Source: a virus
Virus record (IMG/VR): IMGVR_UViG_3300009790_002236
Coordinates: 1 to 27,890 of that record
Direction: 5' to 3' (one strand)
DNA length: 27,890 nucleotides
This document shows positions 1 through 22,709 of the stretch, in pieces (position 1 is the first letter of the stretch; the number at the start of each line of letters is the position of its first letter). The notes beneath the pieces were generated by a model. That model saw only the letters and a program-made list of their open reading frames with translations, was not told where the DNA came from and did no database searches. A program made the position numbers and the translations under genes.

Positions 1-380
1 GTATTAGTAGAATCTAAATCACCAGTGATTGCTTGCTTCATATAGTATGCAAGACGCTCATGAGCATAAGCAGACTGGAATACTTGTAAACGAATGTGAA
101 GTAGAATATCATTAGCACCAAGATATCTCTTAGCAACATTTACTGTATGGAAATTACCACCAGCTCTCATATCCTTAATAAATTCTGTCAATATTTGTGA
201 CAGGTCAGTCTTACAACGTAAAGTACCAGCACCAGTACCATCTTGGTTTCTAGGCATATCCAAAGCAAGATCTGGATACTTCTGAAGCATATCGTAAGAT
301 GCTTTATCTACGATAGGACCAGCATTCATTTCAACTAATTCAGCAGCATCTTCATACCTATACTTACTTGCTGCACCAAT
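1..380 (-). other. Alpha-helical module B (left edge of window)
   Basis: Begins with KYRYEDAAELVEMNAGPIV and continues with YDMLQKYPDL, a Cys-Asp pair (RCKTDLSQI) and DMRAGGNFHT, then AKRYLG. Position by position it matches helical module A: RY, AA, L.E.N, then P, C..D, D.R.G.N, A..Y. It is followed by VFQSAYAHERLAYYMKQAI. The gene runs out of the window here. Confidence 0.65.
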
Positions 381-3300
381 TCTATTTGTATAGATGATGT
401 CATCAGATGCATTATGATTATTAACTGGGAATAATTCTTCATAGTAACTGTAAACTCTACCACCAAGGAATTCTGTAGGTGGTGATAGTTTACTAATTGA
501 TCCTAAATGATCTATTGGACTTGCTGAATTTGCATCTTCCAATGTATCAGTAACAATATCAATTAAGTTTTCAATCGTAGTTGTAACATCGGCACAATCC
601 CTATGATTGTAATCCATAACAGTAATGGATCTACTATCAGCAGAAACAAATCTATGTTGTTGTAATACTTGCTTAACAGCACCAGGAACTGCACTATCAA
701 ATGTATGTTGACTTGCAGGACTATATGTAATATTATTAGAACTAGCATTACCAGTATATGTGTGACCATAATCACCACCAGTTGTTATAACTGATCTACT
801 AATAGAATTGGTAGCAGCTGGATTACCAGATACAAATGTATGACTAGCAATATTAGTTGAAGGTATAACGTCAAGAACTTGTACTTCAAAAGTATATCCT
901 GTAAGATTAGTAGGTAGAACTTTCAACCACTTACCACTAGCAGGGTCTTGAGGACGTGGATATGTATGCAAAGTAGCAAAGTTATCCTTACTGCAAACGA
1001 ATGATAATGAATTATCGTCAAACTTAACATATTCACCTGCATCCATATTATGAATTATATTAGTTGTAATCCTCATTATACCTGTGTAGGCATTATATAC
1101 TGCCCCAACTGGTGTATATTTCTGATATACAGAATATAAAATGTGTTCACTAGTATTACTAATAGCACCATTAGATACGTTAATAGTAATAGTAGTTGAA
1201 GTTTTAGCAGTAATTGCGTGTGCCTTATTATATCCCCAGTCACTTGTACGTGGATAGTAATGAACTGTATTACCACCATCCTGAGCACAAATAAATCCAA
1301 ATGCCTGTTTAGCAACTTTTACACTATCACCAACATCAAGATCGTGAGCACCAATATCAATTATCAATTCACCAGTAGTAGGTTCAAACGCAGTTGCAGA
1401 ACCAGCTACTGTTGAAGGATTGTAACCCTTAATAGGAGACTTACCAACATTAACTTCAATAGTACCGTTCTGAGCTCTGATACCATTTGTCTCTGCAGAC
1501 ATAAAGAAGTGAGTTGAAGTATCTGAAGATATTCCTACATTAACTTCAAATGTATCATTTGTCTTATTAGAAATCTCCATCCATCTTCCAGATGAAGGAT
1601 CTGTAGGACGTGGATACTTATGATCTGTTGTATAACCATCTAAGAAACATCTAAATGTTAATGACTCATCAACAATTTGGATGTAATCTCCATTGCTAAG
1701 ACCATGACTTGTAAGTGTAATTTCCATTACTCCAGTTGAAGGAGTAAATGTAGCACCACTTGCAGTACCTGAATTATAGAATACATCAGTAACTTCAATT
1801 GATTTACCACCACCATAAGGATCGGAAGCTCTTGGATATGTCTTAGTGGCACTGTTGCCATCCATATCACAAGTAAACTGTAAACTATTATCAGCAATAA
1901 CAATACTAGAACCTTTACGCATTCCATGCTGTCCTATTGCCATAGTCAAATTACCAGTTTCAGCATCATAAGTTGCACCAGTTGGTGTAAATGTCTGGTT
2001 AGTTCCAGGAGTACCTACATTAACAGTTACAATAACACCACTAACATTAGTAACTTCTAATTCTTTACCTGCTGCACGAACATCGTGTCCAGGTCTAGGA
2101 TAAGACTTAACGGACTGGTTATTGTCCATTGCACAAGTAAATTTAATTGAATTGTCATCAATGGTGACCAAATCACCAGCAACTAAACCACTATTAGGAA
2201 TAGTCATCTCTAAATTACCACTAACTGTATTGTAAGTGGCAGTCTCAACATTCAATGCTTTATAATTTCTATTTGATCCAAAATCAGTTGTTCCTACATT
2301 AACGGTAAATGTATCTGTATTGAATTTTGTAATTGGTAATACTTGCTTATAAGAAGGATCAGTTGTACGTGGATAGGTATGATTAGTAGTACCATCATCC
2401 ATTTCACAAGTAAATGTTATTGAATTTGCATCAATAGCAATTGCCTTTCCTTTCTTATGGAAACAAGCTGGATCTGCACCAGTTAAAGTATGTGTATAAT
2501 TACCACCAGTTCTAATTACTGCCCTTGTTAATCCATTAGCAGTAGCAGACTGGAATGCGTGAGTAGTTGTATTTGAAGATACTCCAACATTAACAATAAA
2601 GGTATCTTTAGTAACACTAGAAACTGGTATATACTTTCCACTAACAGGATCAGTAGAACGTGGATAAGCGTGATCTGATTGTTGACTATCTTGATCACAA
2701 CGGAATGTTAATGAACCATCAGCAATCCAAACCAGATCACCATCCTCAAATCCGTGGTTAGGAATAGTGAGAGTCATGGAACCAGATGCAGGAGTAAATG
2801 CTGCATTAGTTACAGTAAACTGCTCTCCACCAGATTGGAATTCGTGTGTATAATCACCACCAATTGTGAATGCTTCCAAACTACTTCCATCAGGAGTACC
2901 AGTATTCCAAATGTGGGTATATTGTCCACCACACTTAATAGCATTTGCAGCAGCAGATTGGAATACGTGTGTAGAAGTATTTGAAGATATACCAACATCA
3001 ACAGTAACTACACCAGTTGGTCTACTGAATGCAAGAGGAACAGCAGATACGAAAGTATGTGCAGAGGTATCACTAGATCTACCAATGAAAACATCGAATG
3101 TATCTGTCTGTACATTGAATAGAGGTAACCATTCATAGAAAGAAGGATCTGAACGTCTTGGATATGAATGATTAGTTTGATCATTATCCTTAGCACAAGT
3201 AAAGGTTAATCCACCTTCCTCAATCATAATCTTATCATTTGCCTTAACTATTCCATTAGCAGCTCCAGCAGTCCAAATGTGAGTTGACTGATCAGAGATC

Positions 3301-6300
3301 TTTTGCTCACCAAATAAATTACCAGCAAGAATTCCGAAGGTATTCTGTGTAACATTAAAGATTGGGAAGAACTTACCACTTAAAGGATCAGTTGGTCTAG
3401 GATATGAATGACTAGTACTATTACCATCCAAAGCACAGGTGAAGGTTAAAGAATTATCTTCAAGTTTAACCATATCACCATTTTGGAATCCGTGGTTAGC
3501 ACAAGTAATTTCTAATACACCTGTTGTAACATTAAATGCTGTACCAGATTCTGCTTGCTTAGTAGTTGGAGCAGTATAATTGTGTCCTGGTTTTGTTAAT
3601 GTTAATACACCTGTTATTGGATTATATGCTGCAAGATCTGGTGTGAATTGCGTAACCTTAACATCCTGAATAAATGTTGCTGTATTATATGCATAGTCAG
3701 CACCACCAGGAGCATTAGAACCAGCTGCACGAGGATATGTCTTATCTGTTGTTTGTCCATCAAGATCACAACGGAATGTTAATGAATCTTGCTCAATGAA
3801 GATGGAATCACCAGCTCTAGTGATAGCATTATCAACACAACTTACAAATGTATGAGCATAATCACCACCAGTAATTACAGCACCAGTAGAAGCAGCAGTT
3901 AAGACGAAATTATGTTGACCGTTATGACTAATTGCAGTGTTTGGTGACTCGTTAACATTAATAGTAATAGTTGTTGCATCTGCAGCAGTAATTGTACAAG
4001 CAGTATTGTATGCATAGTCAGCATTATTATTGTTATTTGTATTAGCACCGTATGATCTTGGATATGATTTTTGAGTACTGAATCCATCAGCACCATAATC
4101 ACAAACAAAGACTAATGAATTATCCTTTAATCTAATACTTGTTCCTATTGAAAGACTATGTGAACCAATTGTAAGTACTAAATCACCAGTTCCAGAATCA
4201 TAAGTTGCATTAGTAACATCAAAATCTAATTGTGGAGAAGAACCGACCTGAACAGCAAATGTGTCATCAGTTACAGTACCAATAGACATCCACTTTCCAG
4301 ACTTAGGATCAGTGGATCTTGGGTAAGTATGGTTAGTGCTATTTTGGTCTAATGCACAAGTAAAGGTTAAAGCATCATCAGCAATTTTAATCTTATCCCC
4401 TACCATAAATCCGTGGTTAGGAATAGTAACAGTCATTACACCAGTTGCTGCAACATAACTTGCTGTTGTTGCTGTATGTCTAGTAGAATCTTTAAGCCAA
4501 TGGTTACCCAAAGTAAGATCCATAATACCTGTAGCAGGATCATAATCAGCACCAGAAGGTTGGAATGTAGAGAACTTACTAGTTCCAACATTAACAGTGA
4601 AAGCATTATTATGCTGCTTAATAGCACCATTTACTGCAGAAACAAACTGGTGAGTGTAACCACCAAATGTAGTCTTACCAACATACACATCAAATGTAGT
4701 ATTAGTTGAAGCTTCTACAACACTCCATCCATTCCTATAAACTGGGTCAGTCTTACGAGGATATGCGTGAGTTGTAGCATAACTATCTTTACCACATCTG
4801 AATGTTATAGCACCTTCTTCAAATCTAACTAATTCACCAGCAACCTTAACTGCAGAAGATGTAGTTAAACCTACACAAGTATGTGAACTAAGATCTTGTG
4901 AATAACCTACAAACAATTCAAAATCATTAGTGGTTACATTTTGTGCCTCAATCCACTTAGCATATGCAGGGTCTGTTGCACGTGGGTAGAAATGGTCTGT
5001 TGTTTCATCATCTAATCCACAACGGAATACAAATGCACCATCTACAAGTCTACACAAATTACCATTATATACCTGATGACCTGGTGATGTAATCTTCAAC
5101 ATTCCAGTTGCAGGATCATATTCTGCAAATGTTACTGTTCTAGTACTTGGTGGATTTAATAATGCACCAATCGTAACAGTCATCATACCTGTTACTGGAT
5201 TGTATGTTGCATCTGTTGCAGTTCTATCAATTTCAGATATACTGATAACATCTATCGCAGTTCCACGAGCAGGGTCAGTTAATCTTGGATATTGGTGTTG
5301 ACTATTATGTCCATCCATAGCACAAGTGAACACAAATGCACCATCTCTAAGTCTAATGCTATCACCAACCATTACATTAACGTGTCCATTAAATCCAGGA
5401 GAACCAGGTGCTTTAGTACCAATTACCAAATTACCATTTAAAGGTTCATAAGATGCAGTAGTAACATCAAATGTTTTGTTATGAGTCTTACCAACATCTA
5501 TAGTAATAGTATTATCTTTATGAACTATTCCATTTGGTGATGCAGACTTGAATGTATGTCCAGAAGTATCTGGTGATTTTTCAACATTAACATCAAAAGT
5601 ATGAGTAGTGAGGTTAGTAATCTTATGAAGTCTACCGCTAGTTGGGTCTGTAGAACGTGGATATGAATGTTGTGTCTTCTTATTATCTAACTCACATTCA
5701 AATGTAATTGAATTATCAACAATACGTACCTTATCACCGTAACTAAATCCGTGATTGTAGACAGTAACTGTCATTACACCACTAGTAGGATCATAAGATG
5801 CAAAGGCACAATCGTGTGTAGTTCCTTCATATAAAATAGGAATACTATCGTTATAGATGTAATCTACATCTCTTGGATAATACTTGGTTGATTGTAATCC
5901 ATCCATAGTACATTTGAATGGAAGACTTCCTTTAGCAACCTTAATATTAGTACCTGCTTTTAATCTATGCTCGCCAATAGTCATCTTAAGTAGACCTGTT
6001 GATCCACTATAAGTTGCAGCAGTTGGGTTATGAATAACGTCTGGTGTCTTACCAACATTAACTCTAAATGTTGTTGAGTTAACAACATCTACATTTAACC
6101 ATCCTTGACTTGCTTCATCGGAAGCTCTTGGATACTTATGCTCAGATCTATTTTGATCCATAGTACAAGTAAAGGTTAATGATTCATCTTCTAATAAAAC
6201 TTGATCATTCTGTAGTAATCCGTGAGCACTAGATGTTGTAGCCTCAAAAATACCAGTTGCAGGATCATATGTACCACCGTTAATTGATATTGAAGTTGGA

Positions 6301-9300
6301 CCAAACAAACCGTGTGATGATTTGGTTATTACTAAATCACCAGTCTTAGCATTATAAGTTGCATTGGTTGGTGTTAGTTTAGTAGTATTTCCACCACCAT
6401 CTTCAGTAATAGATGTATCAAATGTCTGTTTTAAACCGTGATGACCTTGAACTTTCCATTCATCGTTAGTTACGATGAAGTCCAACATCTGCTCTAATTT
6501 ACCATATGTCCAGACAGTTTCAATAACTTCCTTTTCAACATTAAGAAGTTGAACATTATTAACATCTGTTCTATTAACATAGTAAGATGCTGCATCCCAA
6601 ATCTTATTATTAGCACCATTACGTAAATCGGTAGCAATAGATCTGCAAATATCTTTAACATCATCTTGACAGTTTATGCTACCATTAATAACAGTGAAAT
6701 CTGGGAATTTCTGTTCTAGTAGATATACTGCCTCTTGAGCAATAAACTCTAAGTTTTGCTCTATTAATGTAGCAGCATTTTTGTATCTGTTACTATTTCC
6801 AACAAAACCTTTAGAAACTGCTCTACCAACATTAACTGTAATTGTTGTACCAGTTGCAGCAGTAATTGCTATTGCAGTGTTGTATGCAGGATCAGTTGTA
6901 CGTGGATAAGTATGCTCTGTAGCGTGAAGATCCTTAGAACAAGTGAACTTCAACTTATTAGCACCAATGGTTACAGTATTAGATGTTGTGTAACTATGAG
7001 AACCAATTAGAAGTATTAAATCACCTGTCTCTGGATCGTATGATGCATCAGTAACATCCTTTGTAGTACCATCATTAAATGTAAGAGCTGAACCAGCAGT
7101 TCCACCAACATAAGTATGGACTCCCACATAACGTACACTAGAGATTATAGAATCATTATTGAAGTATTCACCCTTAGTAAATGACTCAGAACCAGACCAA
7201 TCATCAGTCCAAACTTGTCCGTCTTCACCATCAAGGTGAAGTAATAGTTTTGTATTAATATCACCTTGGAATATACCAGATGGAGTTGCGAATGCTGATG
7301 TATAACGAGCAACATCAGATACTCTAATTTCATCAAAGTGTCCAGAATATCCAGTAGAACCATCACCTGCAATACCAATAAACATTGGTTTAGCAGCATA
7401 TGTTGTATTATCAGTACCAGTTCCAGCTTCAACACCATTAATATAAATTTTACCAGTAGTACCTTCTCTTACATAAGCAATATGATACCAAGTATCAGCA
7501 GCTAATGTAGTTCCACCAGTAGTAACAAGATCACTACCATTAACATTCAAACGAACTTGACCACTAGACATATACAGTCTAAGAGCAACTTCAGTTGCAC
7601 TAGCTGCTCTAGTATCAATCATATCTACTGTTCCTGTTATCGCAGCCGCAACAGGTCTACAGAAGAATTCTACAGTAAAGTTACCAGTACCAAAAGCAAT
7701 TTCACTATTTGTAAGTTCGTAAATATAGTCATTTGCTGCTGCTAGATACAGAGATGTTTTTCCAAATTTCTTTTGATCGGTATCTAATTGAGCACCACCT
7801 TCAAATGTGAAGTTAAAATAGTCTTGACCATTAGATTTAGATCTACCAATCTTACCAAGGAATACTATATTACGTGCTTGATTATATCCAATAACTTCAG
7901 CTTTTGTATCACGACTTCTAACTACTTGACCAGATCCAAAGAATCCAGTTCCTTCTTTATCATAGAAAGCTAGTTTTCTAACTCTTCCTTCTTCACCAGA
8001 AATAAAATCTCCAACGTTATTACCATATTCAACTTTCCAATTCCTTACCATTTCTTCTAGCTGGAAATCACCAACTTTATTATCAAATGGAATTACATAA
8101 TTATTAATTTGTTCATTAGCAGGGAAACTAGAATCAAAGTTAGTGACATAATCATTAAAATCAACAATACTTACTTGAGACTTAGAAATATCATCTAAGA
8201 CAATATTTGGATATGATGTGGATGTAATTCTATTGAATAATAGTCCGAAGAATGAAGATCCAGGAGAAATATCAACCTGTCCAATAAATTCTTGAGTTAC
8301 AGGATCTTGATATGCACTGGTTGCAGTAACTGTAGCAACAACACCAGATCCAGCACCAATAATAACATCATTCAACTGAATATTAAAGAGACCTGGAGTT
8401 GACTGATATGTACCAGCAGTCTTACTTAAAGTAAGATCATTAGTAACCTTAATATCAGTACTATACATTGGAGTATCTTCTGTTTGTGAAACAGGAGTTG
8501 TTCCAACCTGACCTCTAATTACAGTCAATGTAGTTGAATTTACATTATCTGTTATAGATTGAATTTCAAATATCTCAGATCCAAATCTAAAACTATCATT
8601 TTCATTTAAATCAATTGTTCCAGCAGGTAGTGGAATTTCTCCACCTTCAAGAGGAATTACTTCAAATGATGTGGTTGATGCACCTATAGCATAACGTAAC
8701 TTACAAACTGGAGTTTCAGAACCAGTTTCTAAGTTAATAGATTCCACCTTAGCAGTATCTCCAGCTAAGTTAGTTACAGTCTCACCAAATGTGAATAGAC
8801 CGATATTACTAACATCTACTTCAGAAGCTAAATTACCAGAGAATCCAGTTGCAGAAACAGTACATAACTCTTGAGCAATAAAAGTTCCCTCAGTAATATA
8901 ACCAGTAATAAAGTTACCAACAACTTTAACTACAGTAAATCTAGCACCAGAAGCAGTACCAACAATAGTATTACCAAGAGTAGGATAGATACCACTTACA
9001 TTAGTAAATGTGAGTTCTCTAGTTTGTATTGTACTAATACTGATGTTAGCATATTTAACACTTGCTGGTGGTTTTGGTGGTTCAGTGAATACAATAGAAT
9101 CTTGTAAAATGTTAAATGCAGTACCTGGATTCTGTACAACACCATTAAGAACAATCATCAACTGGTTTGCGTTAGCAACAACAGTACCACCATCAACAGT
9201 TAGAGGGAATGATGTTCTTTCACCATCAAATAGATGGTCAATATTATCAACTCTCTGTACAACAGATGTCAAAATATTCTCAGAAGATGTCAATCTCTTC

Positions 9301-12300: not shown

Positions 12301-15300
12301 GCTGTTCTAGAACTCCAAAGATCATTTGTATAAGTCAAGGACTCAGTATCTTGAGTCATTGGTGCATCTGCATCATCAAAGTCTAGAGTCTGAAGACCCA
12401 TATCACCTAGTGCAAAATCACCCTCTCCAATAGTCAATACAGAACCAGTAACAGGAGTTACAGCAGTTCTAACAAATCCAAACTGAGTATTTGTCTGTAG
12501 ACCTTTATCACCCAATCTACTAGCATCAGCATTCTTATCTACCTTTAATCCCCAACCAACATAATCGATATAATCATATCTTGTTATATTATTAGTCCAC
12601 CAAGCAGTATCTGTCCAAGCATAATCAAATGCATAAGAAGCTACAGGTGGTAAAGTTGTTATATCAGAAGGAACAGTAGGAGTAACTGCTCTATTTCTCA
12701 ATCTAATATTATCAATCCAGAATTGACCTTGATAATTCTGATTGAAATCTACAGCAGTAGCACCAAAACCAACCTGATTACCAAAGTAAAGATCCTTAGA
12801 ACCAAAAGAAGTATTTGATAATGTACCACTAATTACTTCAATATTATTAATGAATGCTTTAAATACGTTACCTTCTTTTCTTACAGCAACAGTTTGCCAA
12901 CTATTGTCTGCGTACATATTATTCTGAGACGATGATTGTCCAGAACCATTAATTAACTGAGTTGTGCTATTGGTAATAACCATTTGCAACTCACCACTGG
13001 AATTATCATATCCCAACCAGAGTCCACCAGTAGCATCTCTAGCACCACCAATACCCATTAAGGTTTGAACATTCTGTGATAAAGTCTGAGATGCAGATGC
13101 AGATTTGTATACAAAGAACTCTAAAGTCCAATCATTTGCCAATACTGTACCTAATTCTGAACCTGCTACCTTAATATAAGAATTTGTCCAACTAGCACTA
13201 GAACCTGAAGGATCATAACCATAAATCTTTGCCATATTATCAGCAAAGGTTATAGCATTACTTCCTCCAACTGAAGTCATTGTATAATGACCTGTTAAAT
13301 CTGTTTGCTCATTAGCAGCAAAATCAAAGACAAACTCATTTCTATTCCATTGAGTCTGACCATAAACGTGAACATCACCAGAATTATCTGCATTAATTGT
13401 ATGTGCAGTAATACCTTCTATATTATTTTTATCAAACTTATTAGTAGTATGATTCTTAACAATACCATTATATCCAATCTTAACAGTATCAACAGTCTTC
13501 TCGAATGTTACATTATTATGTCTAGTAAATGCAATATTGAGATCACCAAATATATCAATTGATGTATCATTAACAAGGTTTATATCTCTTCCAGGAGCAA
13601 CATAACGATAATTCCATAAAAGAGTGCCCGATTCATTAAGTTTACCAACCCAGAAACTATCTCTAGTTACATCATCAGATTTAAGTCTTAATGTAGCAGC
13701 AACATAAAATTCATTAAATTCATCTACAACAAGACTGGTATCGATGAATGAATATAGAACTGTGTTAAATTCTTTAATCCAATCAACATTAATTGCATTA
13801 ACACCAATAGTTGCCTTACCAAATGATACATTAATATCATCACTAGTTGGAGTAGATGCAGTCTCCATAGTAAAGTATACTGTTGTGCCAATAATGACCA
13901 TATCAGTAATTTTTTCAGACTTATTAGTAGAAACAAGTTTTCTCTTAATTGCAAAGTTACCTAATGTATCGATTGAAGCAATAAATGCATCCCAAGGATT
14001 ACTGGAGTTGGTATTAGTATAACCAGCAATAACATAACGAGTATCGGATAGTTTCTTTAATGAAGTAACATAATCTCCACGTGTTGAACCAGAAATACCA
14101 GCATATGCTTTTTGGAACTGTAAAGTAGCAGATAATCCATTATCTGCTTGATTATACTTACATAGAATGATGTCTGGGTTATATGCATCCAATAAGTTAC
14201 CATTTGGTTTGTTAACACCAACTACCCAAACTTCATTTCCATTAACATCTAATTTGTTAAATTCTGTATAGTATTGCCCATCTGTACTTTCTAAAGTCTT
14301 CTCCCATTCTTTAACACCAGTAGCAGACAATTTTGCTAATAAAGCAACAGTATTTCCAACAGCATCCTTTGTTTTACCACATAAGAAGACTTCTTTACTA
14401 TCGTTTATTTGTATATCATTAATCTGAACATAATTTTGATTTTCTAATTTAGAAATATAGTAATCTGCTTTTTTGAATACCTGTGGATGTGATAGTATAA
14501 CACGAGGGTTTGTTGTATAACCAGAACCAGAATTAATAACATTAACAGTATTAATAGCACCAACATTAGATACAACAGCCTCTAATTTACCACCCGAACC
14601 ATCTCCATCAATAATAATTTCTGGTGGAATTTCATCACTATACCCAGATCCAGGTTGATCTATAATAATTTCTTCAATTCCCTTATACTGACGAACAATA
14701 AATGTCTTGTTCGTATTTTGCATAATAGGTGTGTAATCAATAAACACAATATCATTAGGAACTAGATTATGTGGAGATCCAGTCTGTAAAACACCATAGT
14801 TATTGCCACTAATATTTTCAAAACCATATGAAGCAACATTCTCACCTTTAATCTTAGATATACGAGCAGATACTCCTGTTCCATCAGTATCATCATTATT
14901 AAATACTAAACGGTCATTAACCTGATAGTTTTTACCAGAGTTTTCAATAGTAAATCCAGTAACAGAAGCATCTTCAAATTTAGTAGTAGTCTCAACTTCA
15001 ATATCAACTTTAGAATCAAATTTAACTTTAGGGAAGTAGTCAAATAATTGTAGAGGAGCCTCTTCAAACATTTGATCTGGATCATCAATCTCGTCTTGAG
15101 TTATGATACCATCTCTATTTTCATCTTCTACTTCAAAGAGTAATGTTTCACCAGCTTCAGTTGTTAATGCTGCTGTAGAAGCATTAGGAACCCTATCGAC
15201 ATCAATATCTACATTCTCATATGGGTCTCTATAACGTACAACTCCAGTAGGAATATTTTGCTGAACAGCATCGGCACTAAGATTCCAAGCATCAACTACA

Positions 15301-18300
15301 GAGTTGAAACTAGGTCCAATAACATATGGGAATACTGGATTACCATTTTCTGTAGCATCAATAGTTACAAAATAACAATATCTACCTTCTGGAAAATCAG
15401 GTGTTTTACAAAAACGACCATTATATTGATCCAGATCACCTAATCCGAAAGTATACTTATAATCTTCTACAAAGTTACCAGCAGGTTCTTCTGTTAATAA
15501 AGGACCAGCAGTTCTATTTGGAACAGGATTAGTGGTTATATCATAAACTAATTCTGTTTTAAGTTCGTAAGAACTATTCAATCTTACAGTTGAAGATGAT
15601 TGATCTGTTGGGTCAGTATAACCATAAGGACCATAAATCGGGTTACCATCAAATGCCCAACCTATAATTGGAGAGTGTGATTGCTGCTCTTCTTTCTCTA
15701 AGATCTCACCACCAGCACTTGTAAATAAGTTATCACCAAGGATATACCTCATTCTCTGAGGGTTAGATAAGTGAGCATACTCACCACCATATTCATTATT
15801 ATATCCAGTAAATACAGAACCTTTAGCATCATCAAAGTTAGATGTAGCCTGTAGGTTATAATTCCATTGGAATACATTAGCAGTGAATGTTGCATTCTGA
15901 CCAACAGAAGTTAGATTAATTACTGTAGTACCTTGAATATACCCAATACCTCTGTTAATAATTTCAATTCCAGTTACCCTACCAGCATTTTCACCATCAG
16001 TATCAATAGTTGCTCTAGCAATAGCACCGAAACCATCACCTTGAATGGTTATTTCTGGAGCAGTAGTATATCCAGATCCAGCAGAAATGATAGCAATAGA
16101 TATTATTCTACCATTATTAACAATCGCCTGTGCAACAGCACCTTTACCAGAACTTAGAGTTATATTAGGACTTGATGTATATGAAACACCACCATTATTA
16201 ATACCAATAGATTGAATTGGTCCACGAACACTAGCAGTACCAGTTGCACCCTGTCCACCACCACCAACAATAGTAATCTGTGGTTGTGAGGTGTATCCAG
16301 AACCTCCTGTGTTAATTAGAATACGTGAAACTTCACCTTTAGTGATAATAGCAGTTGCAGCAGCACCTGAACCGCCTCCACCAACGATTGAGACCAATGG
16401 GGATGAAGTATATCCAGAACCACCAGCAGTTACAGTAACTTCACTAAGAGAACCATTAACTACAACACTCGCTGTTGCACCAGATCCACCACCACCGTCA
16501 ATAGTAATTGCAGGAGGAGAAGCAGCATCATATCCAGAACCAGCATCAGTAATAGTAACATCAGTTACAGCACCAAATGTTTTGGCTAAAGTTGACTTAT
16601 AAGACCAGATTGATACACCATTTACCCAAGTACCGACAGGACCAGGATTAATATCATTCTTAGTTGAAATTGTAGTAGGTACTTTAGGAAATCTATTTAA
16701 TTTACGCTGGTTACCTGGAAGAAGAGCAGATCCTGGGAAAGGACCAATTTCATAGTTAGGAATACCAGTAGCAGCAACATAAACGTAATTATCATTAAAA
16801 AATGAGTTTTGAACGTTAGTAGTATATGGACTTATCGCATTACTTATTGCACTATTAACAGATTTACCTTTATTAAGGTCAACAGATACTAAAATATTAC
16901 CCTGTGGTATAACAGTAGCAGGTTGAGGAAGATTATACTGGAAAATAGTATCACTATCTCTAGATGTTACAAGGAATGTTCCGTTATAAACAATAGGGTT
17001 AGCACCATAAATTGTAACCTGATCTCCAACTAAAAGACCGTGATTATTTGAACAAGTTATAGTTGCAGACTGATCATTAATACCACCATAAGTTACAGAT
17101 TGAACTTCGATTAATTTTTTAACGTTATATAACCAAGTTGTTAATTCTGACCCAGTTCCAGTACCACCAAGCTTAGAAACTGTTAATTTATCTCCAGGTA
17201 AGTAGTAAGAACCAGTATCAGTTAGAGTGGTTTGTTGAGCATCAACAATACCAACAATATTCATTTGTACTTCTTGAAGAGTATCTTTATTAAGATAAAC
17301 CCTAAAATTGGAAGTTACTTCAGTAGCAGAATCCCAATCCTCTACTACACCATTAACTGAACGAGTACATTCAATGAACTGGTTAAGTGATTTTTCCTTA
17401 TATTGAACTAATTCTGCACCAGATCCTGAACCAATCAAAAATTCTCCATTCCTTTCAGGCCAACCAATTGTAGAGTCAACAGTTATAATTGAACTAGTTG
17501 CAGATAGTGGTTCAGCAAGTTTTGTCTTATATGGAACAGTAAATGACCCAGTAATAGTTTCTTCAGAAAGAACTAATTCAAATATCTCAATTTCAGAAGT
17601 CTTAATAGAAATAAAGTTTTCTACTAAAGCACTAGCACCTTTAACGTTAACATCAGCAATATCTTCCTCTTGTATTAAAAGAGCATCCTTAATATTAACA
17701 GATTCACCACTAACTAAAGTTGCACGAAGAATTGTATCAATAGACCAAGTAGCATCAGAAGGTTTAATAATCTGATCTTTTGGATATGATATACTTACAG
17801 TTTCTCCATATAGTAACTTAAACAGATATGCAATACTAAATGAAGTTCCTTTAGATGCATAGAAGTCTTTAATGGTCTTAATTGCTGTTCTAACATCAAT
17901 TTGAGAGTAATCTAGACTTGGAACATCTGGTAAAAACTGTTCTGTATACTTATCAAGTAATCTTTTAACAAATAAAGCATCTAAACACTTAATTGCAGTA
18001 TTTTCTGCGTGAGAAGCAACAGTAGTTTCATTAGAGAATACAGCATTACCATCTTCACTATATTCTGTAATACCACTAGCAGCTCTAGCACATCCTTCAA
18101 ATTTTGCTTTACTATACCCAGTACCATTCTGATTTACTGTAAATCCAGTAACTTCATTAAGACCAACTATTCCAGAAGCTTCTGCAGAAGGTGGTGCTTG
18201 AATGAAAATAGTTGGAGGTTCAGTTGCACTATATCCACTACCAAAATTGGTTATATTGATATCAATGATTTGTCCATTGAAAATAGAAGCAACTGCAGTA

Positions 18301-19952
18301 GCACCATTACCACCAGCATAGTTACCAAGTTGATCTACTCTTTCATCAACAATATAAACAGATGGAACGTCTTGATATCCACCACCACCATCTAAAAGTT
18401 CAATATTCGTTACTCTTCCATCACCATCAACCTTTGTTTGTAAAATCTGAGCACCAACTGGATCTACAACGGCAATTCTAGGAACACCGACATATCCCTG
18501 ACCAGCATTTAGTACATTAACACTTGTAATTCTACCATCAGTTAAAACTGCTTGTAATGATGCTTTAATACCATTTTCCTCAGTTGGAGGGTCAACATAT
18601 ATTGTTGGAACAGTTGTATATCCAATACCACCAGAAGATACAGCAACAGAACTAATAGTTCCACTAGACATCACTGGAGTGGCAAGTTTACCGCCTCCAG
18701 GTTGCCTGAAAGTAAGTCTAGGTGTAAATGTATATCCACTACCAGAATTGATGATTTCTAGTCCACTAACAGCACCATTAGTAACAGTTGCTTTAATGAC
18801 TGCTGATGTAGAACCTGGTTTCGTAGGTGCTTGAACATCAACTAAAGGTGGGTTTGTATCACTATATCCATATCCACCATCTAGAAGGGAGACACTCTTA
18901 ATACCATTGACCAATGCAGTAGCAGATGCACCAGTACCTTCTGGAGCATTAATGGATACCTTTGGAGGATACTCAAACCTATAATTAGATCCAAAATCAC
19001 TAGTAGTAACTCCAGTTAGAGTTCCAGCATCATCAATTCTAGCATAACCTACAGCACCTGTACCGAAAGATGGAATTGGTGCTTCAATAGAGAATAATGA
19101 TAGGAATCTACCGTTTAAAGGTGTCTCTTTGAATATAAACTGATCACCATCAATATAAAAATCTACTTTTGGAATTAATAACTGTTTATCGTAAATGGCA
19201 AGAACATACTCATCGATAATTGGCTCATACCTAACACCATCACGTGTCATAGTAAATTGACGTTTACCCTCACCAAAACTATTAGATAAGTTATCAATAG
19301 GTTGTATAACACTCTCAACAAAACCACTCAAGTATGTAATATAAGTACCTGATGTATCATCAGCATCCAATTTCTGTCTAGGTGCTTCAGTGTATACAAT
19401 ATCAGTACCATCTATTTCATAATCAATACCTGGAATCTGTAAAACACCATAATTTTGCACTATTAAATGCTGTGCAGAAGGTGGTGCAATTGGATTATTC
19501 TGTGAAATTAATGAAAATCTTCTCTGAGTACCATCAAACAAACTTAAAGGACTTGCAAGACCTGTCCACTTTAATTTTACTTGCTCATAGGAAATACCTG
19601 GAGTAAGAGATATATTTGGGGAAGCAGTTGTTTTTTCATAATAAATTACCTCATCACCAATCAAAATAGATCCATTTTTCTCCAAAAATGAATCAACACT
19701 CTCTACAACAATCGTATCATCAGTTATTTTAACAGTCTCTACAACTTTAGTCGCACCATCAAGAATTCCTATATCCAGTTTATCAATGTCAAGATATTGG
19801 AGGAAATTATTTAATAAATTTTGCCCTAATCCAGTTTTCTCCTGAGATCTATAATAATATTCAATGAATTTATTAAAGAGAGGATACTCTTGCTCGACAA
19901 AAGCTGGAGTCTGAGTAGAGACTTGTTGAGATACTTTATTGATATTTGCCAT
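1..19952 (-). CDS. Giant modular tail/baseplate-associated adhesin (partial, at least 6,650 aa)
   Basis: One uninterrupted frame runs from an ATG at 19952 to the left edge, so the C-terminus is missing. The frame was checked at widely spaced landmarks (15659, 13130, 8039, 6908, 962) and all share one phase. The N-terminus reads MANINKVSQQ. Approximate residue map: 1-240 mixed helical head with EQEYPLFNKFIEYYYRSQEK; 306-590 first GSGY repeats; 666-725 helical segment with IKDFYASKGT and LFKLLYG; 1125-1340 second GSGY cluster; 1395-1551 YHYH domain; 1826-2203 propeller-like region; 2208-2421 LamG-like fold 1; 3005-3243 third GSGY cluster; about 3456-3480 segment with YYYQDFSYAVKS; 4041-4251 LamG-like fold 2; 4306-6373 YPR repeat array, interrupted by a helical module at 4385-4498; 6525-6650 second helical module. 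It lies 5 nt behind gp6, so it is probably coexpressed with the baseplate. No clear Shine-Dalgarno is seen, which suggests coupling to gp6 translation. A virion adhesin or fibre is inferred from the lectin-type domains and position; no enzyme active site was recognised. Confidence 0.93.
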   Translation of the reverse strand, partial: MANINKVSQQVSTQTPAFVEQEYPLFNKFIEYYYRSQEKTGLGQNLLNNFLQYLDIDKLDIGILDGATKVVETVKITDDTIVVESVDSFLEKNGSILIGDEVIYYEKTTASPNISLTPGISYEQVKLKWTGLASPLSLFDGTQRRFSLISQNNPIAPPSAQHLIVQNYGVLQIPGIDYEIDGTDIVYTEAPRQKLDADDTSGTYITYLSGFVESVIQPIDNLSNSFGEGKRQFTMTRDGVRYEPIIDEYVLAIYDKQLLIPKVDFYIDGDQFIFKETPLNGRFLSLFSIEAPIPSFGTGAVGYARIDDAGTLTGVTTSDFGSNYRFEYPPKVSINAPEGTGASATALVNGIKSVSLLDGGYGYSDTNPPLVDVQAPTKPGSTSAVIKATVTNGAVSGLEIINSGSGYTFTPRLTFRQPGGGKLATPVMSSGTISSVAVSSGGIGYTTVPTIYVDPPTEENGIKASLQAVLTDGRITSVNVLNAGQGYVGVPRIAVVDPVGAQILQTKVDGDGRVTNIELLDGGGGYQDVPSVYIVDERVDQLGNYAGGNGATAVASIFNGQIIDINITNFGSGYSATEPPTIFIQAPPSAEASGIVGLNEVTGFTVNQNGTGYSKAKFEGCARAASGITEYSEDGNAVFSNETTVASHAENTAIKCLDALFVKRLLDKYTEQFLPDVPSLDYSQIDVRTAIKTIKDFYASKGTSFSIAYLFKLLYGETVSISYPKDQIIKPSDATWSIDTILRATLVSGESVNIKDALLIQEEDIADVNVKGASALVENFISIKTSEIEIFELVLSEETITGSFTVPYKTKLAEPLSATSSIITVDSTIGWPERNGEFLIGSGSGAELVQYKEKSLNQFIECTRSVNGVVEDWDSATEVTSNFRVYLNKDTLQEVQMNIVGIVDAQQTTLTDTGSYYLPGDKLTVSKLGGTGTGSELTTWLYNVKKLIEVQSVTYGGINDQSATITCSNNHGLLVGDQVTIYGANPIVYNGTFLVTSRDSDTIFQYNLPQPATVIPQGNILVSVDLNKGKSVNSAISNAISPYTTNVQNSFFNDNYVYVAATGIPNYEIGPFPGSALLPGNQRKLNRFPKVPTTISTKNDINPGPVGTWVNGVSIWSYKSTLAKTFGAVTDVTITDAGSGYDAASPPAITIDGGGGSGATASVVVNGSLSEVTVTAGGSGYTSSPLVSIVGGGGSGAAATAIITKGEVSRILINTGGSGYTSQPQITIVGGGGQGATGTASVRGPIQSIGINNGGVSYTSSPNITLSSGKGAVAQAIVNNGRIISIAIISAGSGYTTAPEITIQGDGFGAIARATIDTDGENAGRVTGIEIINRGIGYIQGTTVINLTSVGQNATFTANVFQWNYNLQATSNFDDAKGSVFTGYNNEYGGEYAHLSNPQRMRYILGDNLFTSAGGEILEKEEQQSHSPIIGWAFDGNPIYGPYGYTDPTDQSSSTVRLNSSYELKTELVYDITTNPVPNRTAGPLLTEEPAGNFVEDYKYTFGLGDLDQYNGRFCKTPDFPEGRYCYFVTIDATENGNPVFPYVIGPSFNSVVDAWNLSADAVQQNIPTGVVRYRDPYENVDIDVDRVPNASTAALTTEAGETLLFEVEDENRDGIITQDEIDDPDQMFEEAPLQLFDYFPKVKFDSKVDIEVETTTKFEDASVTGFTIENSGKNYQVNDRLVFNNDDTDGTGVSARISKIKGENVASYGFENISGNNYGVLQTGSPHNLVPNDIVFIDYTPIMQNTNKTFIVRQYKGIEEIIIDQPGSGYSDEIPPEIIIDGDGSGGKLEAVVSNVGAINTVNVINSGSGYTTNPRVILSHPQVFKKADYYISKLENQNYVQINDIQINDSKEVFLCGKTKDAVGNTVALLAKLSATGVKEWEKTLESTDGQYYTEFNKLDVNGNEVWVVGVNKPNGNLLDAYNPDIILCKYNQADNGLSATLQFQKAYAGISGSTRGDYVTSLKKLSDTRYVIAGYTNTNSSNPWDAFIASIDTLGNFAIKRKLVSTNKSEKITDMVIIGTTVYFTMETASTPTSDDINVSFGKATIGVNAINVDWIKEFNTVLYSFIDTSLVVDEFNEFYVAATLRLKSDDVTRDSFWVGKLNESGTLLWNYRYVAPGRDINLVNDTSIDIFGDLNIAFTRHNNVTFEKTVDTVKIGYNGIVKNHTTNKFDKNNIEGITAHTINADNSGDVHVYGQTQWNRNEFVFDFAANEQTDLTGHYTMTSVGGSNAITFADNMAKIYGYDPSGSSASWTNSYIKVAGSELGTVLANDWTLEFFVYKSASASQTLSQNVQTLMGIGGARDATGGLWLGYDNSSGELQMVITNSTTQLINGSGQSSSQNNMYADNSWQTVAVRKEGNVFKAFINNIEVISGTLSNTSFGSKDLYFGNQVGFGATAVDFNQNYQGQFWIDNIRLRNRAVTPTVPSDITTLPPVASYAFDYAWTDTAWWTNNITRYDYIDYVGWGLKVDKNADASRLGDKGLQTNTQFGFVRTAVTPVTGSVLTIGEGDFALGDMGLQTLDFDDADAPMTQDTESLTYTNDLWSSRTATVPSPGSQKLKISANIKDRYYFKVTNTTKIDNIQELTINQSFLFTVGTKLRLNNINTGAFVNSGYIIRVDNINNKVYCAVNINTWTDDLNTGTLVTEQFNEQDTFGIVGPVPNDVNEMKGYTFAQVDNTTPGTFDIALADYDATADIGGTNNLNQYARFKPFADDDYSIRIDEVAGGSAYIVGSVINLNSGDISFNADYTTTQITNLTGVLKITLISNLKKILQVTAVNNSDEVYVITGTSHYLNQGEMIYVDGNPDQTYGGSVYDEYDGAFPVESVVSPLEFTYKLPQAALTSPSSNAGVVNIFVKSPVLKMYYGHQYIFDLSHSSLVGGNLSFAKDNLYKLEYSFNSIERTGTPGITGGGTVIPSVKLKIDTEIVTNISYYFDPGRTGDDSPIIPGSYLDVTDSPYTGTFTISSIAGATITRGADTFKFPLLNEPEGNADILQASYTTSSEKAVGSIGDIRIINPGGFYTKLPIVTDIASTRKIERVQIVEPGTEYAVGTYNGVPIAGDGEGGFVQITVADGEDAEGITIPGQIQNCVVTSPGKGYTTATIDVEGVEGILGSGLAGSGAELTVVIPPFGTEASIFTKGDKVGKIKKLKNNNFGYDYPHDYTLRPEITFPLNAQLTSTSILESITVTNPGSGYSLAPTVIIQGGGGSGATAEATIKNGRLDNIEVKDPGAGYSSTPQVSLRSAFNYVVNLDLGLLQFAYPHGIPNGAEVSVQVTDTGDGADFPLAAGATGRLNPSTTYYAIAGTLNSLEPDQLKIAITPQNAELGDALSFVNAGEGRQSILTESFGGAATANVVTSTFLEGEMVYQGDTLDVATATGYVSTNSGWQIGPRILKIVDYTGDFSEGQQLTGVISKSSGTISDLKFARGVLDIGSITKTTGQFIDDVGKPSEIIQKIQDSYYYQDFSYAVKSAVSISEWKEILIRNVHPASFKVFGELNLNEYGQIPNKETFFQLTKSVELAQEAIVPNIQSFALVEPIYTEFNNTEVLFRQKRLTSSENILTSVVQRVDNIDHLFDGERTSFPLTVDGGTVVANANQLMIVLNGVVQNPGTAFNILQDSIVFTEPPKPPASVKYANISISTIQTRELTFTNVSGIYPTLGNTIVGTASGARFTVVKVVGNFITGYITEGTFIAQELCTVSATGFSGNLASEVDVSNIGLFTFGETVTNLAGDTAKVESINLETGSETPVCKLRYAIGASTTSFEVIPLEGGEIPLPAGTIDLNENDSFRFGSEIFEIQSITDNVNSTTLTVIRGQVGTTPVSQTEDTPMYSTDIKVTNDLTLSKTAGTYQSTPGLFNIQLNDVIIGAGSGVVATVTATSAYQDPVTQEFIGQVDISPGSSFFGLLFNRITSTSYPNIVLDDISKSQVSIVDFNDYVTNFDSSFPANEQINNYVIPFDNKVGDFQLEEMVRNWKVEYGNNVGDFISGEEGRVRKLAFYDKEGTGFFGSGQVVRSRDTKAEVIGYNQARNIVFLGKIGRSKSNGQDYFNFTFEGGAQLDTDQKKFGKTSLYLAAANDYIYELTNSEIAFGTGNFTVEFFCRPVAAAITGTVDMIDTRAASATEVALRLYMSSGQVRLNVNGSDLVTTGGTTLAADTWYHIAYVREGTTGKIYINGVEAGTGTDNTTYAAKPMFIGIAGDGSTGYSGHFDEIRVSDVARYTSAFATPSGIFQGDINTKLLLHLDGEDGQVWTDDWSGSESFTKGEYFNNDSIISSVRYVGVHTYVGGTAGSALTFNDGTTKDVTDASYDPETGDLILLIGSHSYTTSNTVTIGANKLKFTCSKDLHATEHTYPRTTDPAYNTAIAITAATGTTITVNVGRAVSKGFVGNSNRYKNAATLIEQNLEFIAQEAVYLLEQKFPDFTVINGSINCQDDVKDICRSIATDLRNGANNKIWDAASYYVNRTDVNNVQLLNVEKEVIETVWTYGKLEQMLDFIVTNDEWKVQGHHGLKQTFDTSITEDGGGNTTKLTPTNATYNAKTGDLVITKSSHGLFGPTSISINGGTYDPATGIFEATTSSAHGLLQNDQVLLEDESLTFTCTMDQNRSEHKYPRASDEASQGWLNVDVVNSTTFRVNVGKTPDVIHNPTAATYSGSTGLLKMTIGEHRLKAGTNIKVAKGSLPFKCTMDGLQSTKYYPRDVDYIYNDSIPILYEGTTHDCAFASYDPTSGVMTVTVYNHGFSYGDKVRIVDNSITFECELDNKKTQHSYPRSTDPTSGRLHKITNLTTHTFDVNVEKSPDTSGHTFKSASPNGIVHKDNTITIDVGKTHNKTFDVTTASYEPLNGNLVIGTKAPGSPGFNGHVNVMVGDSIRLRDGAFVFTCAMDGHNSQHQYPRLTDPARGTAIDVISISEIDRTATDATYNPVTGMMTVTIGALLNPPSTRTVTFAEYDPATGMLKITSPGHQVYNGNLCRLVDGAFVFRCGLDDETTDHFYPRATDPAYAKWIEAQNVTTNDFELFVGYSQDLSSHTCVGLTTSSAVKVAGELVRFEEGAITFRCGKDSYATTHAYPRKTDPVYRNGWSVVEASTNTTFDVYVGKTTFGGYTHQFVSAVNGAIKQHNNAFTVNVGTSKFSTFQPSGADYDPATGIMDLTLGNHWLKDSTRHTATTASYVAATGVMTVTIPNHGFMVGDKIKIADDALTFTCALDQNSTNHTYPRSTDPKSGKWMSIGTVTDDTFAVQVGSSPQLDFDVTNATYDSGTGDLVLTIGSHSLSIGTSIRLKDNSLVFVCDYGADGFSTQKSYPRSYGANTNNNNNADYAYNTACTITAADATTITINVNESPNTAISHNGQHNFVLTAASTGAVITGGDYAHTFVSCVDNAITRAGDSIFIEQDSLTFRCDLDGQTTDKTYPRAAGSNAPGGADYAYNTATFIQDVKVTQFTPDLAAYNPITGVLTLTKPGHNYTAPTTKQAESGTAFNVTTGVLEITCANHGFQNGDMVKLEDNSLTFTCALDGNSTSHSYPRPTDPLSGKFFPIFNVTQNTFGILAGNLFGEQKISDQSTHIWTAGAANGIVKANDKIMIEEGGLTFTCAKDNDQTNHSYPRRSDPSFYEWLPLFNVQTDTFDVFIGRSSDTSAHTFVSAVPLAFSRPTGVVTVDVGISSNTSTHVFQSAAANAIKCGGQYTHIWNTGTPDGSSLEAFTIGGDYTHEFQSGGEQFTVTNAAFTPASGSMTLTIPNHGFEDGDLVWIADGSLTFRCDQDSQQSDHAYPRSTDPVSGKYIPVSSVTKDTFIVNVGVSSNTTTHAFQSATANGLTRAVIRTGGNYTHTLTGADPACFHKKGKAIAIDANSITFTCEMDDGTTNHTYPRTTDPSYKQVLPITKFNTDTFTVNVGTTDFGSNRNYKALNVETATYNTVSGNLEMTIPNSGLVAGDLVTIDDNSIKFTCAMDNNQSVKSYPRPGHDVRAAGKELEVTNVSGVIVTVNVGTPGTNQTFTPTGATYDAETGNLTMAIGQHGMRKGSSIVIADNSLQFTCDMDGNSATKTYPRASDPYGGGKSIEVTDVFYNSGTASGATFTPSTGVMEITLTSHGLSNGDYIQIVDESLTFRCFLDGYTTDHKYPRPTDPSSGRWMEISNKTNDTFEVNVGISSDTSTHFFMSAETNGIRAQNGTIEVNVGKSPIKGYNPSTVAGSATAFEPTTGELIIDIGAHDLDVGDSVKVAKQAFGFICAQDGGNTVHYYPRTSDWGYNKAHAITAKTSTTITINVSNGAISNTSEHILYSVYQKYTPVGAVYNAYTGIMRITTNIIHNMDAGEYVKFDDNSLSFVCSKDNFATLHTYPRPQDPASGKWLKVLPTNLTGYTFEVQVLDVIPSTNIASHTFVSGNPAATNSISRSVITTGGDYGHTYTGNASSNNITYSPASQHTFDSAVPGAVKQVLQQHRFVSADSRSITVMDYNHRDCADVTTTIENLIDIVTDTLEDANSASPIDHLGSISKLSPPTEFLGGRVYSYYEELFPVNNHNASDDIIYTNRIGAASKYRYEDAAELVEMNAGPIVDKASYDMLQKYPDLALDMPRNQDGTGAGTLRCKTDLSQILTEFIKDMRAGGNFHTVNVAKRYLGANDILLHIRLQVFQSAYAHERLAYYMKQAITGDLDSTN
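835..7050 (-). repeat. 19-copy YPR protein repeat array (end of giant gene)
   Basis: The core unit reads roughly 'Y-x-P-x-T-G-x-(M/L)...HG(F/L)..GD.(V/I).(I/L).D.SLTF.C..D......H.YPR.(T/S)DP......(I/V)....(T/D)TF.VNVG'. The conserved YPR falls near nt 6908, 6134, 5879, 5664, 5291, 4988, 4766, 4325, 4065, 3739, 3407, 3163, 2669, 2378, 2105, 1840, 1620, 1259 and 962 (within a few nt). Spacing runs from about 216 to 494 nt; the long unit near 6500 is stretched by helical module A. A second element, with consensus H.F.SA...AI, fills many of the longer units. The copies are diverged enough to be old, yet near-identical 20-nt stretches persist. Confidence 0.88.
6460..6800 (-). other. Alpha-helical module A (insert in repeat array)
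   Basis: About residues 4385-4498. Starts with RYKNAATLIEQNLEFIAQEA, followed by YLLEQKFPDF, a Cys-Asp pair (NCQDDVKDI) and DLRNGANN. It is rich in Leu/Ile/Glu/Lys and predicted helical, unlike the beta repeats around it. It separates the first YPR unit from the remaining eighteen. It aligns with module B near the left edge. Confidence 0.7.
7200..7830 (-). other. LamG / concanavalin A-like domain 2 in giant protein
   Basis: About residues 4041-4251. A textbook LamG-like order is visible: FGKTSLYLAAANDYI, FGTGNFTVEFFCRP, VDMIDTRAA, LRLYMSSGQVRLNVNG, WYHIAYVREGTTGKIYINGV, KPMFIGIAGDG, GHFDEIRVSDVARYT and LLLHLDGEDG. It is better conserved than domain 1 and lies just before the YPR array. Confidence 0.88.
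10220..10945 (-). repeat. GSGY beta repeats, cluster 3 (in giant protein)
   Basis: About five copies: IINPGGFYTKLP, IVEPGTEYAVG, TSPGKGYTTATI, TNPGSGYSLAPTV and KDPGAGYSSTPQV. Some are separated by longer inserts than in clusters 1 and 2. The same turn chemistry makes a shared origin likely. Confidence 0.75.
12690..13330 (-). other. LamG / concanavalin A-like domain 1 in giant protein
   Basis: About residues 2208-2421. Features of the Laminin_G_3 or LamG-like jelly roll appear in order: WTLEFFVYKS, LMGIGGARD, WLGYDNSSGELQM, WQTVAVRKEGNVFKAFINN, LYFGNQ and FWIDNIRLRNRAVTP. Folds of this type usually bind glycans or proteins, fitting a cell-surface recognition role. Confidence 0.8.
13345..14475 (-). 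other. Propeller-like repeat region in giant protein
   Basis: About residues 1826-2203. Short blades alternate strand-rich text with phrases such as VFLCGKTKDAVGN, LLAKLSATGVKEWEKTL, YVIAGYTNTNSS, AFIASIDTLGN, FWVGKLNESGTLLWNYRY and VHVYGQTQW. The 'G.T....D.....K....G...W' rhythm resembles SBBP- or PQQ-type beta-propeller blades. I count roughly 5-6 blades. It may be a binding or spacer domain. Confidence 0.55.
15300..15770 (-). other. YHYH-type domain in giant protein
   Basis: About residues 1395-1551. The segment SHSPIIGWAFDGNPIYGPYG followed by Y is the signature of the YHYH domain family, whose hallmark is an 'AFDGxPIYGPxGY' stretch. Downstream, GRFCKTPDFPEGRYCYFVTI and NPVFPYVIG fit the end of the same domain. 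The family occurs in bacterial secreted proteins and, to my recollection, in marine phage structural proteins; its biochemical role is unknown. Confidence 0.8.
15920..16580 (-). repeat. GSGY beta repeats, cluster 2 (in giant protein)
   Basis: About six copies, the most regular in the protein: DAGSGYDAASPP, AGGSGYTSSPLV, TGGSGYTSQPQI, NGGVSYTSSPNI and SAGSGYTTAPEI. They are joined by Gly-rich linkers such as GGGGSGATA. Two further copies lie at about 14700-14500 (PGSGYSDEIPP and NSGSGYTTNPRV). The period is close to 40 aa. Confidence 0.85.
17780..17955 (-). other. Helical baseplate-type segment in giant protein
   Basis: About residues 666-725. Contains LPDVPSLDY, then IKTIKDFYASKGT, then IAYLFKLLYGE. 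This aromatic, helix-forming stretch differs from the surrounding beta repeats. I recall similar wording in large tail proteins of other myoviruses, but could not search. It may be a structural core near the attachment end of the protein. Confidence 0.5.
18185..19035 (-). repeat. GSGY beta repeats, cluster 1 (in giant protein)
   Basis: About eight degenerate protein repeats of roughly 35-45 aa. Each has a short beta strand, then a Gly turn of the type GSGY, then a proline and another strand. Examples are LLDGGYGYSDTNPP, IINSGSGYTFTP, SSGGIGYTTVP and NAGQGYVGVPRI. Most are followed by a Gly/Ala-rich stretch and a V/T-N-G turn. The pattern suggests a stacked beta structure acting as a rigid spacer. 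Confidence 0.8.
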
Positions 19953-21997: not shown

Positions 21998-22422
21998 TAT
22001 TCAGGTCTCTGTAGGACAAACTTGACTTCTTCAACAATAGGTATACCAACAACTTGATAAACTATAGTAACAGCGAGTTTTGAATTTTCTCCATAAGGAA
22101 CTACCACTACGGATCTCAACTGTACTCTTTTCTCATACTGATTAATTGTATTTATTATTTCATCCTTAATTGTATCTGCTGTGAATCCATCTAAAGGTTC
22201 AAACAGCAACTGCATTACTTGACACCCCACATTTTTGTTAAATGGAATCTCACCAGGTGAAGTCATCACCAAATTCCTCAAAGCTTGTTTAATAGAATTC
22301 TCATTTTTAACTATAGAAACATCATTGGTGAAAGGATTTCTACCAAATGCCATTCCAATATCTTTAAAAGATCTTGACTTATTAGATGCTAAATCTGCAC
22401 TAGTTAATCTTTTTAATGCCAT
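21997..22422 (-). CDS. gp25: Baseplate wedge protein gp25
   Basis: 141 aa, near the usual length of the GPW/gp25 family (T4 gp25 is 132 aa). It joins wedge to sheath and is related to the TssE/gpW assembly fold. The family core is visible at residues 43-78: IKQALRNLVMTSPGEIPFNK, then NVGCQVMQLLFEPLD. The N-terminus FKDIGMAFGRNPFTNDVSIV is the expected lead-in. A C-terminal ferredoxin-like strand pair ends in EEVKFVLQRPE. Its start overlaps the SET-gene stop by one base, and its stop overlaps the gp6 start by one base. No anomalies seen. Confidence 0.95.
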   Translation of the reverse strand: MALKRLTSADLASNKSRSFKDIGMAFGRNPFTNDVSIVKNENSIKQALRNLVMTSPGEIPFNKNVGCQVMQLLFEPLDGFTADTIKDEIINTINQYEKRVQLRSVVVVPYGENSKLAVTIVYQVVGIPIVEEVKFVLQRPE

Positions 22423-22709
22423 TAAACTTCATAAAAGGTGTATTTCAGAAAGAGTTCCTTCATAGGGTCAATATCCTCTAATACAGTTATAAAATACCTG
22501 TGAGGTTCATATTCATACTTCGCACAATTAGGATGGTCACTATGGTTTATAAAACCGCCTAGTGGTGTCCTTATAATCTCTTCACCTAATATAATATGGG
22601 ATAAACCTAAAACAGTTCCAGATTCAAGAGGTCTTCTTGTAAATATCCCTTGACCAGCAATAGGACTATCCGATATGAATAATCCGTCTGGTAATGCCCT
22701 ATAAGTCAC
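22422..22709 (-). CDS. Small stand-alone SET-domain protein (putative protein methyltransferase)
   Basis: 95 aa, all SET domain. Visible motifs: GQGIFTRRPLESGTV at 19-33 (AdoMet-binding edge, usual form GxGxF.....I..G), LGGFINHSDHPNC at 50-62 (NHS...PN core) and ELFLKYTFY at 85-93 (usual E-L-x-x-x-Y). SET proteins methylate lysines, or in some cases other groups, using AdoMet. This copy is minimal, with short pre- and post-SET parts, so it may be weakly active or depend on a partner. The frame opens at GTG (22709) after a three-codon mini-ORF; an in-frame TAG at 22730-22728 limits upstream extension, leaving only rare ATT start alternatives. It ends in TAATG with gp25. Target unknown: a virion protein or a host protein are both possible. 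Confidence 0.85.
   Translation of the reverse strand: MTYRALPDGLFISDSPIAGQGIFTRRPLESGTVLGLSHIILGEEIIRTPLGGFINHSDHPNCAKYEYEPHRYFITVLEDIDPMKELFLKYTFYEV

Follow-up and report, generated by a model that had tools for sequence, protein, structure and literature searches.

A giant baseplate gene of marine cyanophages probably encodes a gp7-type wedge protein with a split core

The giant gene of an IMG/VR viral contig (IMGVR_UViG_3300009790_002236) probably encodes a divergent gp7-type baseplate wedge protein in which the conserved core is split into three colinear blocks. The stretch analyzed, referred to here as the window, is the entire contig of 27,890 bases, so the missing end of the gene had to be taken from relatives. 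By homology, the gene is of an already-known kind, its product belonging to a family of giant tail-baseplate proteins that marine cyanophages (Kyanoviridae) encode; what is new here is the gp7 identity, the anatomy of the protein, and the recognition of an internal array as the source of its length. T4-like cyanophages rank among the most abundant viruses of the ocean, and the giant gene occupies about 14% of such a genome. Current database labels for it are “virion structural protein” or “head and packaging.” A split gp7 would place the gene in the virion and would trace its length differences to an internal array. Features are collected in Table 1.

Table 1. Features of the window; aa numbers refer to the giant protein
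Feature	Position	Strand	Evidence
Giant baseplate protein, probably gp7-type, N-terminal 6,650 of ~8,224 codons	3..19952	-	ORF and relatives; stop outside window
Putative gp7 core block 1 (aa 5-59), helical	19776..19940	-	phmmer with Desulfovibrio phage 7757 protein, E 0.009, weak alone; colinear with blocks 2 and 3; stronger in S-SZBM1_208
Putative gp7 core block 2 (aa 684-738)	17739..17903	-	phmmer E 2.4e-8 to 7757; hhalign to T4 gp7 E 1.5e-6
Putative gp7 core block 3 (aa 3454-3500)	9453..9593	-	phmmer E 1.4e-12 to 7757; hhalign to T4 gp7 860-916 E 0.007
XD/gp10-like docking domain, copy 1 (aa 133-214)	19311..19556	-	HMM cross-detection between copies
XD/gp10-like docking domain, copy 2 (aa 219-291)	19080..19298	-	AF2 model vs CBA120 TSP4 185-254: Z 8.5, 2.6 A, 70 residues
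XD/gp10-like docking domain, copy 3 (aa 3567-3649)	9006..9254	-	HMM cross-detection between copies
Gly-rich beta repeats within insertion 1 (aa 300-620)	18093..19055	-	AF2 pLDDT ~90 over aa 350-590, all beta; no firm fold match
Gly-rich beta repeats, second cluster (aa 1120-1350)	15903..16595	-	Translation
YHYH domain (aa 1359-1534)	15351..15878	-	PF14240 E 3.2e-31; 109 bits vs curated cut-off 25
Possible beta-propeller (aa 1830-2200)	13353..14465	-	Weak: PF18764 E 0.012, below cut-off
LamG-like domain 1 (aa 2257-2425)	12678..13184	-	PF13385 27.6 bits, exactly at cut-off
LamG domain 2 (aa 4083-4216)	7305..7706	-	PF13385 E 2.8e-18, 66.9 bits, above curated cut-off
YPR array: 19 full all-beta units and fragments (aa 4294-6382); helical module near aa 4390-4510	807..7073	-	HMM; AF2
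Helical module after array (aa 6433-6650)	3..656	-	51-57% identical to cultured cyanophages
gp6 baseplate wedge, directly upstream of giant	19958..21997	-	phrog_219 E 3.8e-228
gp25 baseplate wedge	21997..22422	-	phrog_261 E 3.3e-60
Two conserved function-unassigned genes between gp25 and oxygenases	22422-22709, 22756-23448	-	phrog_28741, phrog_17328
Two 2OG-Fe(II) oxygenase genes, 4-base overlap, within baseplate cluster	23435-24004, 24001-24783	-	
PAAR spike-tip protein	24932..25477	-	phrog_281
Baseplate wedge subunit (phrog_719)	25474..27831	-	E 2.4e-266

One unbroken frame in a known cyanophage family

An earlier note, made from the window sequence alone, had described one minus-strand frame of nearly 20 kb that is still open at the window edge, and this description is borne out. 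The frame begins with ATG and runs for 6,650 codons without a stop, while the other five frames of the same DNA contain 318 to 1,032 stops each. In 50 shuffles, open runs reached at most 193 codons, and at this composition a stop-free frame has a probability of about 10^-221. Codon-position GC (about 0.47/0.43/0.15) is even along the whole length, and dN/dS is about 0.20, 0.11, and 0.25 against the related contigs L007, L038, and L037, respectively; most substitutions are thus silent, and by this measure the frame is under purifying selection. An independent contig from a separate dataset (L037) matches 18,240 bases of the window at 99.6%, and L007 matches 9,780 bases up to the window edge at 96.2%, both with 0 gaps; L006 has the last 3,260 bases in common at 99.7%. 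No stop or frameshift was found in the relatives examined. Judged from contigs, not reads, an assembly error is neither needed nor likely to account for the giant frame.

The stop that was expected to the left of base 1 was located in L006 (TAA), L007, and L008, where the frame continues for 1,824 residues beyond window residue 6401. Reconstructed through these near-identical sister contigs, not read from the window contig, the full-length protein would have about 8,224 aa (about 886 kDa), of which the window portion is, on this estimate, the first 81% (the N-terminal 6,650 codons). In a related record of 179,402 bases, the giant frame has 8,394 codons (about 25.2 kb, or 14% of the record), in agreement with the earlier view that the gene takes up a large share of its genome. 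We found no usable yardstick for the largest phage gene in the literature and therefore make no claim to a record.

A tblastn search with the first 500 aa returned 327 phage records, cyanophages without exception. In S-SSM5, S-SM1, P-RSM4, P-SSM4, S-P4, Syn33, Syn19, and S-RS29, a homolog of 6,171 to 7,312 codons lies directly after gp6 and ahead of gp9 (6,180 aa in S-SM1 and 6,603 aa in P-RSM4), and the homolog S-SZBM1_208 has 6,619 aa. Relatives are encoded in 486 IMG/VR stretches, and 14 of 17 long IMG/VR records contain both gene ends in a single frame (7,938 to 8,458 codons). The search among phages that the earlier note had advised revealed homologs in cyanophages. The gene is neither new nor singular: the P-SSM4 homolog (YP_214641, 7,312 aa) is a public record, and its GenBank label is already gp7. 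The window gene shares with the family (phrog_701) an unbroken frame exceeding 6,000 codons, homology through the N-terminal half, and a position directly downstream of gp6 and ahead of gp9. P-RSM4, S-SM1, and similar Kyanoviridae relatives are 70 to 71% identical to it across the first ~4,070 aa.

The PHROGs category for the giant (phrog_701, phrog_19630, and phrog_18802) is “head and packaging,” which conflicts with its baseplate position. In S-SZBM1, a second gene labeled “baseplate wedge initiator” (L138:4260-6107, 615 aa) had no gp7 core match, and its label looks doubtful for that reason.

A probable gp7-type core split by insertions

The three putative core blocks occur in T4 order; about 620 residues are inserted between the first two and about 2,700 between the last two, and an extension of about 4,700 residues follows. 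Direct matches between T4 gp7 and the giant are confined to short blocks, and the homology is made firm by two proteins that bridge them. The bridging protein from Desulfovibrio phage 7757, which is 587 aa long, aligns with T4 gp7 residues 641-892 over 243 columns (hhalign E 5e-6), and as a query it found gp7s in the phage collection. As a control, its first 300 aa were searched against 286 ORFs from nine loci (stop to stop, at least 100 aa; Z=1e6) plus the reversed giant; only giant frames and Sinorhizobium phage phiM7 gp92 were listed, the window frame at E 9e-18. The gene for phiM7 gp92 (1,006 aa) immediately follows one of gp6 type; in the protein, blocks 1 and 2 lie together and block 3 about 800 aa later, and the insert between blocks 2 and 3 consists of Gly-rich repeats. 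These proteins form a graded series, from the compact 7757 and T4 forms through phiM7, with one insertion, to the cyanophages, with two insertions and a long extension.

The sole meaningful PDB sequence match of the N-terminal part was T4-like baseplate gp7, at a weak E of 0.5 for the single sequence and 0.1 for the profile. The Pfam models Gp7_helical, Gp7_5th, and Gp7_6th, all three of which match T4 gp7, found no match in the giant. In an AF2 model of aa 1-800, the gp7 helices were unfolded (pLDDT under 50), the structures listed for it did not include a T4 gp7 chain, and Foldseek returned no PDB match under E 0.001. Because of the missing Pfam matches, the weak block 1, and the unfolded helices, we file the protein as a remote gp7 homolog. 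It has the core blocks in the gp7 order, and its gene adjoins gp6.

Gene order around the giant is also that of a baseplate cluster. Its gene follows gp6 after a gap of 5 bases and precedes gp9, comparable to gp7-gp8 in T4; beyond its stop, L006 and L007 encode a gp9 homolog (PF07880) and then a gp10-like wedge protein. The latter (L007:15761-19777, L006:9242-11674) bears its own YHYH domain and YPR unit, and so adjoining wedge proteins have modules in common.

A published survey reported gp7 to be absent from these phages and stated that VrlC replaces gp7 (PMC7029224), and gp7 has been placed among the genes of the non-cyanophage core (PMC3037559). The split core, if correctly recognized, contradicts the reported absence. 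In blastp, phiM7 VrlC had no match to the giant, to the wedge protein encoded in the window, or to the gp10-like one.

The earlier note had read the gene as a very long adhesin that starts at the baseplate. It was right that there is a single giant, baseplate-linked gene with lectin-like modules, but the protein appears to be a wedge-building, divergent gp7 with the modules inserted into and after its core. A long tail fiber or adhesin with no relation to gp7, joined to the baseplate only by its N terminus, would explain the LamG, YHYH, and repeat domains, and XD-like domains are known in tailspikes too. We nonetheless consider it unlikely, given the three colinear gp7 blocks across aa 5-3500 and the gene order. 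Its conservation profile also argues against such an adhesin: the N- and C-terminal parts are conserved, and the variable part is the internal array, not a C-terminal tip, since the ~1,340 aa after the array, as read from relatives, are 54 to 60% identical to those of cultured relatives.

A second alternative, that one translated chain is cut into separate baseplate, fiber, and lectin proteins, would suit the modular make-up and the presence of a prohead protease in T4-like phages. Virion mass spectrometry, which the earlier note had proposed for finding the peptides, exists for homologs: the S-SM1 homolog (T4-GC969) was found in virions (PMC3037559), and the S-SZBM1_208 protein was reported as a baseplate wedge initiator, for which 71 peptides gave 13.5% coverage (PMC9146016). 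The published peptide lists give coverage of whole ORFs, which is not proof of one intact chain, but S-SZBM1_208 is a single 724-kDa entry in the published table (PMC9146016). Cutting would also split one fold, as the halves of the gp7 core lie 2,700 aa apart, and relatives carry the frame uninterrupted. On balance, we regard a polyprotein as quite unlikely, and a single gp7-type chain is assumed below.

Added domains and the YPR array

Most of the modules named in the earlier note (helical head, Gly-rich repeats, YHYH, LamG, and YPR array) were recovered. Its propeller is weakly supported, and Pfam and PDB sequence searches of that region gave nothing firm; the note had overlooked one of the two LamG domains, the XD-like copies, and the split core. 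The XD-like domain is a beta domain of about 75 residues in five copies, of which copies 4 and 5 (about 7915-7991 and 7994-8079) lie beyond the window in relatives. HMMs of single copies detect the others. For a model of copy 2 (aa 214-294), which has the expected beta-jellyroll of about 70 residues, the ten best-ranked structure matches were all phage tail proteins (7rfo_B, Z 8.5; also 9f4b_FA); the other copies are tied to it by sequence. A profile of all five matched a PDB capsule depolymerase (E 1e-7). Judged by position, the CBA120 TSP4 stretch matched by copy 2 is the XD2 region, the fold of which is common to T4 gp10 and docks other trimers (PMC8825819).

The YPR array appears to be the main source of length differences among these phages: between conserved flanks there are 2,150 aa here versus about 225 aa in S-SSM5, and larger arrays go with longer proteins. 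Counting HMM matches above 10 bits, fragments included, we found 21 in the window and a further 2 in L006, 13 in P-SSM4, 11 in S-P4, 7 each in P-RSM4 and Syn19, 2 each in S-SM1 and S-SSM5, 1 each in Syn33 and S-RS29, and none in S-SZBM1_208. The literal YPR motif occurs 19 times in the window and twice more in L006. Units within the giant are 34 to 55% alike, while many match the unit at the counterpart position in relatives at 50 to 70%, which indicates that the array is old, with some reshuffling. TRF detected no tandem DNA repeat; the array is visible in the protein only.

A two-unit AF2 model was compact and all beta (pLDDT 88.5). The unit model matched the inserted barrel of phage endosialidases (phi92, K1F) at Z 8.0, 2.2 A over 78 residues, with 22% identity, a borderline result tied with unrelated barrels (Uba1). 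We discounted the Foldseek match to Uba1, since that barrel arrangement is a common one.

Assembly can be misled by repeats and the evidence comes from contigs, not reads, but an array produced by collapsed or chimeric repeats is hardly credible given such divergent units with no DNA repeat, the agreement of separate contigs with 0 gaps, and the retention of most units in order by more distant relatives.

Proposed function and comparison with known systems

In T4, gp7 is present as one chain per wedge. With that copy number, one giant chain would be built into each wedge, its core joining gp6, as gp7 and cyanophage virion proteomics suggest, and the inserted material would project from the baseplate. 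From their folds, the five XD-like domains may dock fibers or neighboring baseplate proteins, while LamG, YHYH, and YPR may form a binding or spacer surface facing the host. Our best reading, which draws on structural models, is that the giant would act as the wedge backbone, dock fibers, and bear binding modules, presumably with an adhesive role. The array may serve as a spacer, as a multivalent binder of glycans, or as the place where host recognition varies.

Tentatively, and with somewhat less than even confidence, we postulate that gp7 was not lost in marine cyanophages but grew, by nested insertion at two fixed core points and by C-terminal extension, into a single polypeptide of up to ~0.9 MDa per wedge. 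One chain would then build the wedge, dock fibers via five gp10-type XD domains, and bear its own lectin and a repeat array whose unit number varies between lineages. On any split-gp7 reading, the core would still have to fold despite a 2,700-aa insertion within 280 aa of core. If true, a nested-insertion gp7 would merge jobs that T4 splits among gp7, gp10, gp11, and gp12. The series formed by 7757, phiM7, the cultured cyanophages, and the window clade offers a way to study the growth, through insertion, of an essential part of a machine.

T4 gp7 (1,032 aa) likewise adjoins gp6 and has the three conserved blocks in the same order as the giant. Its core, however, is contiguous and C-terminal, with about 100 aa between blocks 2 and 3, in contrast to the two large insertions and added C-terminal extension of the giant. 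The 7757 protein and phiM7 gp92 have a gp7-type core like that of the giant, but compact or with a single insertion. CBA120 TSP4, T4 gp10, and RaK2 gp528, the last with five predicted XD domains (PMC10253068), resemble the giant in the predicted XD fold, and RaK2 gp528 also has multiple copies per chain; here, unlike in those proteins, the domains sit within a gp7-type wedge protein. The inserted barrel of endosialidases is the nearest phage structure to the YPR unit model, and in the giant it would be repeated about 20 times. With the giants of cultured cyanophages, the window protein has in common the gene position, the split gp7 blocks, and the conserved C-terminal ~1,340 aa, but it has about 21 YPR units versus 0 to 13 and about 8,224 aa versus 6,171 to 7,312. 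S-SZBM1_208 is more distant, with 45.6% identity over the first 2,259 aa, and it too sits directly after gp6.
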